Positions 20,161 to 21,483 of a DNA stretch of 64,000 nucleotides are shown in pieces; the first letter of the stretch is position 1, and each line of letters starts with the position of its first letter. A program made the position numbers and the translations under genes. The stretch lies in the NCBI GenBank assembly GCA_027307335.1, contig DAHUXD010000060.1:1-64000 (forward strand). The letters are read 5' to 3'. The notes under the pieces are model-generated. The model made no database searches, had not been told where the DNA came from, and was given only the letters and a program-made list of their open reading frames with translations. Source of the stretch: Acidobacteriota bacterium. Its GTDB lineage: Bacteria > Acidobacteriota > Thermoanaerobaculia > UBA5066 > Gp7-AA6.

Positions 20161-21159
20161 ATGCCGAGCGCCCTCACCAACGCCGTCCTGACGTACGGCC
20201 TGCCGCTCGTGTTCGTCGTCGTGCTGCTCGAGCAGCTCGGCGCTCCGATTCCGGCCATTCCGGTGCTCATCGTCGCCGGCGCGTTGTCGCTCGACCGGGA
20301 CCTCTCCGCCTGGCAGGTCCTGCTCGTGGCGATCGTCGCGTCGCTCATCGCGGACAGCGTCTGGTTCCTGCTCGGCCGGTCGCAGGGGCAACGCGTCCTG
20401 AAAACGCTGTGCCGCATCTCGCTGTCGCCCGACTCGTGCGTGCGCCAGACGGAGTCCGTCTTCGAGCGCTGGGGGATGCCGTCGCTGCTGGTGGCCAAGT
20501 TCATTCCCGGCTTCTCGACCGTCGCTCCGCCGATGGCCGGCGCGACGGGGGCGGGCATCGACGAGTTTCTGCTCTACGACGGCGGCGGCGCGCTGCTCTG
20601 GGCGGGGGCGGGCGTCGTGGCCGGGCTGATCTTCCACCGGGCCATCGACCGCGCGCTAGCGTACCTCGCCTCGTTCGGGAGCGCGGCGTTCGCCCTGCTC
20701 GGGGCGGGGCTCGTGGCCTTCATCGCCGTCAAGTGGTGGCAGCGGCGGCGCTTCTACAAGGTCCTCCGCATGGCGCGGATTTCCGTCGACGACCTGCGCC
20801 GCCTCATGGACGAGGGCAAGAGCCCGATCGTGCTCGACGTGCGGACCGTCAAGGGCCGCTCGCTCGACCCGAGGCGGATCCAGGGAGCCGCCGTCTTCGA
20901 CGTCGATCACATCGACGACGCGCTGAGGGACCTGCCGCGCGACCGGGAGATCGTTCTCTACTGCACCTGACCGAACGAGGCGTCGGCGGCCCGTGTGGCT
21001 CGCATGCTGATGGACAGGGGGTTTACGCTGGTGCGTCCGCTCGCGGGCGGCCTCGAGGCGTGGGTCGAGGCCGGCTACGCCCTCGACGTCGAGCCGCTCA
21101 TCGCGATCCGCCCGTCGGGATCCTTCGACAAGACTTCGACCGGCTTCCCGCGGCAGTAA
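20161..21159 (+). CDS. DedA-family membrane protein fused to rhodanese domain, with in-frame TGA (candidate selenoprotein)
   Basis: Residues 1 to about 200 form a DedA/VTT membrane domain (EQLGAPIPAIPVLIVAGAL near residue 24, FIPGFSTVAPPMAGAT near 114, four to five helices). Residues from about 208 form a rhodanese domain (IVLDVRTVKG, then EIVLYCT at residues 263-269). Codon 270 (20968-20970) is TGA. The frame then continues PNEASAARVARMLMDRG and RPLAGGLEAW to TAA at 21157-21159 with the same GC-rich third positions. From family knowledge, DedA-rhodanese fusions usually read YCTCPNEAS here, so the TGA stands exactly at a Cys, giving C268-T-U270. The first Cys is the expected persulfide-forming residue. 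If TGA were a true stop the rhodanese domain would lose its second half. A nonsense mutation cannot be excluded without homologs. Confidence 0.75.
20979..21008 (+). promoter_or_regulatory. Candidate bacterial SECIS hairpin
   Basis: A hand-drawn fold directly after the TGA pairs 20979-20983 with 21004-21008, 20986-20987 with 21002-21003, and 20988-20991 with 20997-21000, with small bulges and apical loop CGUGU (20992-20996). The loop begins 21 nt after the TGA and has G in its second position, as bacterial SECIS elements usually do. Fold energy was not computed. Confidence 0.4.
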
Positions 21160-21186: not shown

Positions 21187-21483
21187 ATGCGTCACTCGAG
21201 GATGGTCGCCGCGAGCCTCGCCCTGGCTTCCTTGCTGTCGTCGTTGCCGGCCGCGGCCGCGAGCCCCGACAAGTACCAGGTGACCGGGCAGGTGGTCGAG
21301 GTCACGGATTCCATGATCGTCGTCATGAAGGGCAAGGAGCGCTTCGAGATGGCGCGCGATGCCTCGACGAAGGTCAACGGGGATCTCAAGGTGGGCGCCA
21401 AGATCACGGCGCAGTACAAGATCACCGCCACGTCGGTCGAAGTCAAGGCCGACAAGGCCGCGACGACGAAGAAGAGCAAGTGA
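21187..21483 (+). CDS. Small secreted protein of unknown function
   Basis: The 98-residue exported protein has a signal peptide (residues 1-25, cleavage near PAAAA-SPDK) and a compact beta-rich domain: YQVTGQVVEVTDSMIVVMKG, then ERFEMARDASTKV, KVGAKITAQYKITATSVEVK. This pattern resembles small OB-like/DUF5666-type periplasmic proteins. The Lys-rich tail ends in KKSK. A strong ribosome-binding site (AGAGGAGG) lies upstream and a terminator follows, so it may be the second gene of the DedA-rhodanese transcript (27-nt gap). Function unknown. Confidence 0.75.
   Translation: MRHSRMVAASLALASLLSSLPAAAASPDKYQVTGQVVEVTDSMIVVMKGKERFEMARDASTKVNGDLKVGAKITAQYKITATSVEVKADKAATTKKSK

Follow-up and report, generated by a model that had tools for sequence, protein, structure and literature searches.

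A DedA-rhodanese fusion protein of Acidobacteriota with a predicted selenocysteine in its rhodanese active site

The question raised by this locus is whether a single in-frame TGA ends a protein in the middle of a domain, or is read through as selenocysteine (Sec). In the stretch of Acidobacteriota DNA that we analysed (64,000 nucleotides, hereafter the window), a frame on the forward strand opens with ATG at 20161 and meets TGA at 20968-20970, codon 270, right behind the residues IVLYCT. The same frame then continues for 62 further sense codons to a TAA at 21157-21159, and the predicted complete selenoprotein gene (20161-21159) would encode 332 residues, Sec270 included. Pfam searches place a VTT (DedA) membrane domain at residues 30-155 (20248-20625; PF09335, 5.4e-13, 49.9 bits against a cut-off of 33.9) and a rhodanese domain at residues 208-303 (20782-21069; PF00581, 7.1e-10), and consequently the TGA lies inside the rhodanese domain, whose active-site loop reads YCT-TGA-PNEAS. 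Termination there would cut the protein within this loop and remove the last third of the domain. An earlier note on this DNA had pointed to this TGA in mid-rhodanese and proposed a candidate selenoprotein in which TGA takes the place of a Cys codon. The TGA is confirmed and does not stand there by chance, since nearly all full-length orthologs of the class have it at this codon and the sequence 3' of it is strongly conserved.

Within the order, all ten orthologs covering the position, the one in the window included, read CTU. Among 149 genomes of the class, TGA was found in 30 of 31 full-length copies, and all thirty have C-x-U, nearly always as YCTU. The exception is the copy of genome G142, CCSCPNEASSARVA, which has Cys; this genome is 84% complete, and searches for selA and selB in it were negative. 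A wider sample of 396 genomes of the phylum added 21 with TGA copies and 39 with only TGA-free copies, giving totals of 51 related genomes in which a full-length ortholog carries TGA and 40 others in which it has no stop. The residue at position 270 was read in seven of the 39 stop-free phylum copies, the remainder being counted simply as TGA-free; in these seven (YCTC) and in G142, hence in all eight stop-free copies read, it is Cys. Position 270 is accordingly Sec or Cys in 55 of 55 aligned proteins, with nothing else in the rows read, and the Cys homologs, with YCTCP, YCACP, YCDCP or CCSCP, bear out the proposal that TGA stands for a Cys codon. Maximum-likelihood phylogeny places the phylum's Cys rows within a well-supported group that holds many Sec rows, and the Sec/Cys label requires three changes. 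The tree, which has several long branches, suggests that replacement of Sec by Cys may have occurred repeatedly. Two genomes, G378 and G318, each have two TGA-bearing copies of the fusion.

The genome from which the window comes has one selA (3.2e-137), a selB scoring over its cut-off, selD (1.1e-111) and a tRNA-Sec, for which ARAGORN reads the anticodon tca. This genome is thus not devoid of selenium machinery, nor do its sister genomes have Cys only, and the candidate put forward by the earlier note is supported by the presence of all four Sec genes as well as by the TGA-or-Cys alternation. Across the class, selA is present in 137 of 149 genomes. All 51 genomes with the TGA form have selA or selB, and 50 have selA, the sole exception being G452, in which selB was found. 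By comparison, of the 40 genomes whose copy is stop-free, G142 counted among them, 3 have selA. For the phylum sample (20 of 21 TGA genomes versus 3 of 40 stop-free genomes) this gives a Fisher p of 5.5e-12, a value that leaves out the 30 TGA-bearing members of the class. In these distributions the TGA form of the fusion tracks the Sec machinery, and the exchange for Cys appears to have taken place mostly in relatives without selenium machinery. Three genomes, G188, G211 and G496, have both selA and selB and yet a fusion copy without TGA.

The search for a recoding signal, which the earlier note had named as a check, led to a bacterial SECIS-like hairpin 3' of the TGA. At 20986-21003 (forward strand), the stem GCGGCC pairs with GGC-U-CGC, in which the U is bulged, around the loop CGUGU. 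Published criteria for bacterial SECIS elements are a loop of 3-9 nt, a stem of 4-16 bp, a G among the first two loop bases, a distance of 16-37 nt from the UGA and an energy of at most -7.5 kcal/mol (PMC13188914). The window hairpin lies within all of these limits, with a 5-nt loop that has G as its second base, six base pairs and one bulge, a loop 21 nt after the TGA, and an energy of -8.5 kcal/mol over a 24-nt stretch. Taken singly, it does not exceed synonymous shuffles in stability (p 0.6), a 54-nt stretch folded freely favours another structure (z +0.86), and no Rfam match was found in the window at gathering score. In a gene so rich in GC, minimum-energy tests of a single sequence are uninformative, and therefore the case for the structure rests on comparison.

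This comparison was made on codon usage and on base pairing. Of the gene's 75 conserved codon columns with four- or six-fold degeneracy, those of lowest synonymous entropy are codons +7 (GCC in 30 of 30) and +9 (GTG in 30 of 30) after the TGA, with +6 and +8 also near the bottom of the ranking, and this indicates that the nucleotides are constrained beyond the needs of the protein. These codons build the hairpin, GCGGCC-CGUGU-GGC(N)CGC. Covariation was seen between codons +6 and +10 at their wobble bases (alignment columns 21 and 33), the second being G in 11 of 11 sequences in which the first is C and in 1 of 19 otherwise (p 2.2e-7, calculated on related sequences that are not all independent). 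When 44 sequences are compared, the stem shows 27 changes on both sides, against 11.3 in shuffles, and does better than slid controls; at least 5 bp are formed by 43 of the 44 if three registers, distinguished by a bulge, are allowed. A clean compensatory change is found in L105, with GUGCC/GGCAC for GCGCC/GGCGC. None of the seven Cys copies in the phylum's main Cys clade has the hairpin. The Cys copy of G142 (L085) retains a remnant of it (z -3.75), and this looks like a recent change from Sec to Cys.

We also observed rhodaneses that stand alone and have an in-frame TGA in YCTU (L043:271-576, L044:1510-1836, L086, L087, L088, L090 and L054:1739-2053). They come from related genomes and from a bacterium of the Anaerolineales (DeMMO6_43) and have a similar hairpin, often GCGCC-loop-GGCGC, so that the Sec module extends beyond the DedA fusion. 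A scan of genome contigs gave only one distant rhodanese, from Anaerolineales.

In the rhodanese half, Cys268 (20962-20964), at the site of the persulfide-forming Cys of rhodaneses, is invariant in all 55 fusion proteins, and D226 and R228 are conserved in the same alignment. In an AlphaFold model of moderate confidence (pLDDT 76.9, from a ten-row alignment), residues 268-272 lie between a strand (264-267) and a helix (273-285), as expected of the rhodanese active-site loop, and the best fold matches are solved rhodaneses, with a TM-score of up to 0.76 over the target. The loop itself, CTUPNEAS, differs from the CRxGxR loop of classic rhodaneses.

For the membrane half, we used as reference a canonical DedA protein from the window's own genome, aligned to the fusion, together with column counts over the 55 fusion proteins. 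Where the canonical protein has PGDS the fusion has PAIP, so that the Asp is gone and a P-x-x-P stands instead. We take this Asp and E24 to be the acidic residues that form the proton path of DedA proteins; E24, just upstream of the VTT domain, is Glu in 41, Gln in 2 and Asp in 1 of the 44 Sec forms. The canonical protein also has two Arg residues where the fusion has K113 (in 55 of 55) and, at position 119, Ser, Asn, Gly or Ala, but never Arg. A pair of Arg residues on the second re-entrant helix (R130 and R136 in E. coli YghB) has been tied to undecaprenyl-phosphate binding (PMC10127716). In addition, C84 (20410-20412) and C93 (20437-20439) are kept without exception in the 55 fusion proteins, whether Sec or Cys forms and including three distant ones from Pseudomonadota, and are missing from the canonical DedA. 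From these residues, the DedA subgroup to which the fusion belongs is probably not a lipid-carrier flippase.

The surroundings of the gene were compared with the short flanks available for other copies. Directly after the selenoprotein gene, a frame at 21187-21483 encodes a small protein of 98 residues with a signal-like N-terminus; it has no Pfam match and does not adjoin other fusion copies. The upstream KdsD gene had no match near the other copies either, an all-versus-all clustering of ORFs gave mostly shadow frames, and within these flanks there was no conserved neighbour pointing to the substrate of the fusion.

Taking the machinery, the recurrence of the TGA and the comparative evidence for the hairpin together, insertion of Sec at codon 270 is close to certain from sequence. 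SelB with Sec-tRNA would read the UGA as directed by the hairpin, the apical loop of which begins 21 nt downstream, and the product would be an inner-membrane DedA-like domain followed by a C-terminal rhodanese domain, probably cytoplasmic because the basic stretch KWWQRRRFYK comes after the last helix. In the mechanism that we propose, Cys268 would accept a sulfane sulfur atom and become a persulfide; Sec270, two residues on, would attack this persulfide, either releasing sulfide or passing sulfur or selenium on, and a Cys268-Sec270 selenenylsulfide would remain. This could then be reduced by thiols, possibly those of C84 and C93 in the membrane domain, a suggestion drawn from their conservation. 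The idea of the earlier note, a Cys/Sec redox pair beside the persulfide-forming Cys, would fit this mechanism. We consider the explanation as a whole, a 332-residue membrane selenoprotein with CxU persulfide chemistry, to be likely. Its exact chemistry can be named only tentatively, and our assignment as a membrane-anchored CxU persulfide (sulfane-sulfur) reductase or transferase, with the function predicted, falls somewhat short of an even chance.

Perhaps the UGA is after all a true stop, leaving a DedA protein with a truncated and dead rhodanese tail, whether through sequencing error, a pseudogene or a decaying fusion. TGA does act as a stop elsewhere in the window, for example at the end of the 98-residue gene at 21483. 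However, a plain stop is hard to bring together with a TGA shared by 51 genomes and followed by 62 conserved codons, in the place of which stop-free relatives have Cys; the recurrence in itself rules out sequencing error, a pseudogene and a plain stop, and we give this explanation hardly any weight.

The alternatives that accept Sec differ in the chemistry that they assign to it. One would have the enzyme reduce peroxides or disulfides as a thiol/selenol reductase, with the rhodanese fold a mere scaffold for the CxU pair. Spaced pairs of Cys and Sec are typical of redox motifs, C84 and C93 with their invariance could serve as a resolving dithiol, and antioxidant defence has been said to depend critically on selenoproteins (PMC13188914), but the conserved active-site Cys together with the D226/R228 motif favours persulfide chemistry and there is no peroxidase-like fold among the fold matches, so that we regard such a reductase as unlikely, though deserving of attention. 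Less probable still, and in our opinion improbable, is that the protein handles selenium itself, with a perselenide on the rhodanese, a membrane domain tied to selenium uptake or export, and its own Sec as a selenium sensor. A Cys relative of the fusion does occur in Cupriavidus metallidurans CH34 (L116:3001-3873), and a DedA protein, not necessarily this one, is reportedly, going by the title of a 2005 article by Ledgham et al. cited in PMC10127716, linked to selenite resistance. Against this, many genomes that lack selA have the stop-free form, which indicates that the core function is independent of selenoprotein synthesis. Persulfide chemistry at a membrane-anchored CxU centre is therefore the reading that we prefer.

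Among known families, that of the CxU rhodaneses is the nearest. Rhodaneses with CxU are listed selenoproteins, as form 3, NF041203 (PMC13188914), and this model (rhodanese_LYCAU, 'Rhodanese-like domain-containing protein form 3') shares with the window protein the C-x-U at the active site, here C268-T269-U270. It is also the best NCBIfam match (E 8.6e-24, 83.6 bits), under its curated cut-off of 115; the difference is that here the rhodanese is fused behind a membrane domain and makes up the C-terminal half of the protein. Fusions of COG0586 with rhodanese are known, but have no established link to function, and the reason for the fusion has been called unclear (PMC10127716); PA1209 is an example (PMC12893004). 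The Cys fusions, annotated 'DedA family protein/thiosulfate sulfurtransferase GlpE', have the same two domains and C84, C93 and C268, with 38-47% identity in Pseudomonadota, but carry Cys at 270, and those of the phylum's main Cys clade have no hairpin. With the DedA undecaprenyl-phosphate flippases of COG0586 the VTT domain and E24 are held in common, whereas the fusion is without the Asp of PGDS, has K113 and S119 for the two Arg, and has the extra C84 and C93. TsoB (NF045694), a selenoprotein resembling a rhodanese/DsbD fusion, likewise joins a rhodanese to another domain, but the partner is a different one and the motif is UxxxxU, and the window protein scores 12.8 bits against a cut-off of 805. 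A search of the open-access literature gave no description of a selenoprotein with a DedA or VTT domain, nor do DedA proteins appear among the prokaryotic selenoproteins listed in 2026.

With the fusion, the CxU rhodanese selenoproteins would gain a membrane (DedA) architecture. This appears to be a stable trait, with TGA in 51 sampled genomes of one phylum and the stop-free form found mostly where selA is absent. Because standard gene callers stop within the active site, these proteins risk being annotated as truncated DedA proteins. We also considered, as a speculative and rather unlikely extension, a selenoenzyme embedded in the membrane, whose DedA-derived domain has lost the flippase residues, gained the conserved dithiol C84/C93 and exchanges electrons or sulfur with the Cys-x-Sec centre of the rhodanese; if true, selenium and sulfane sulfur would here form the basis of a novel kind of membrane redox relay. 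C84, C93, C268 and Sec270 are clear and testable residues, and they bear on why rhodaneses are fused to DedA.
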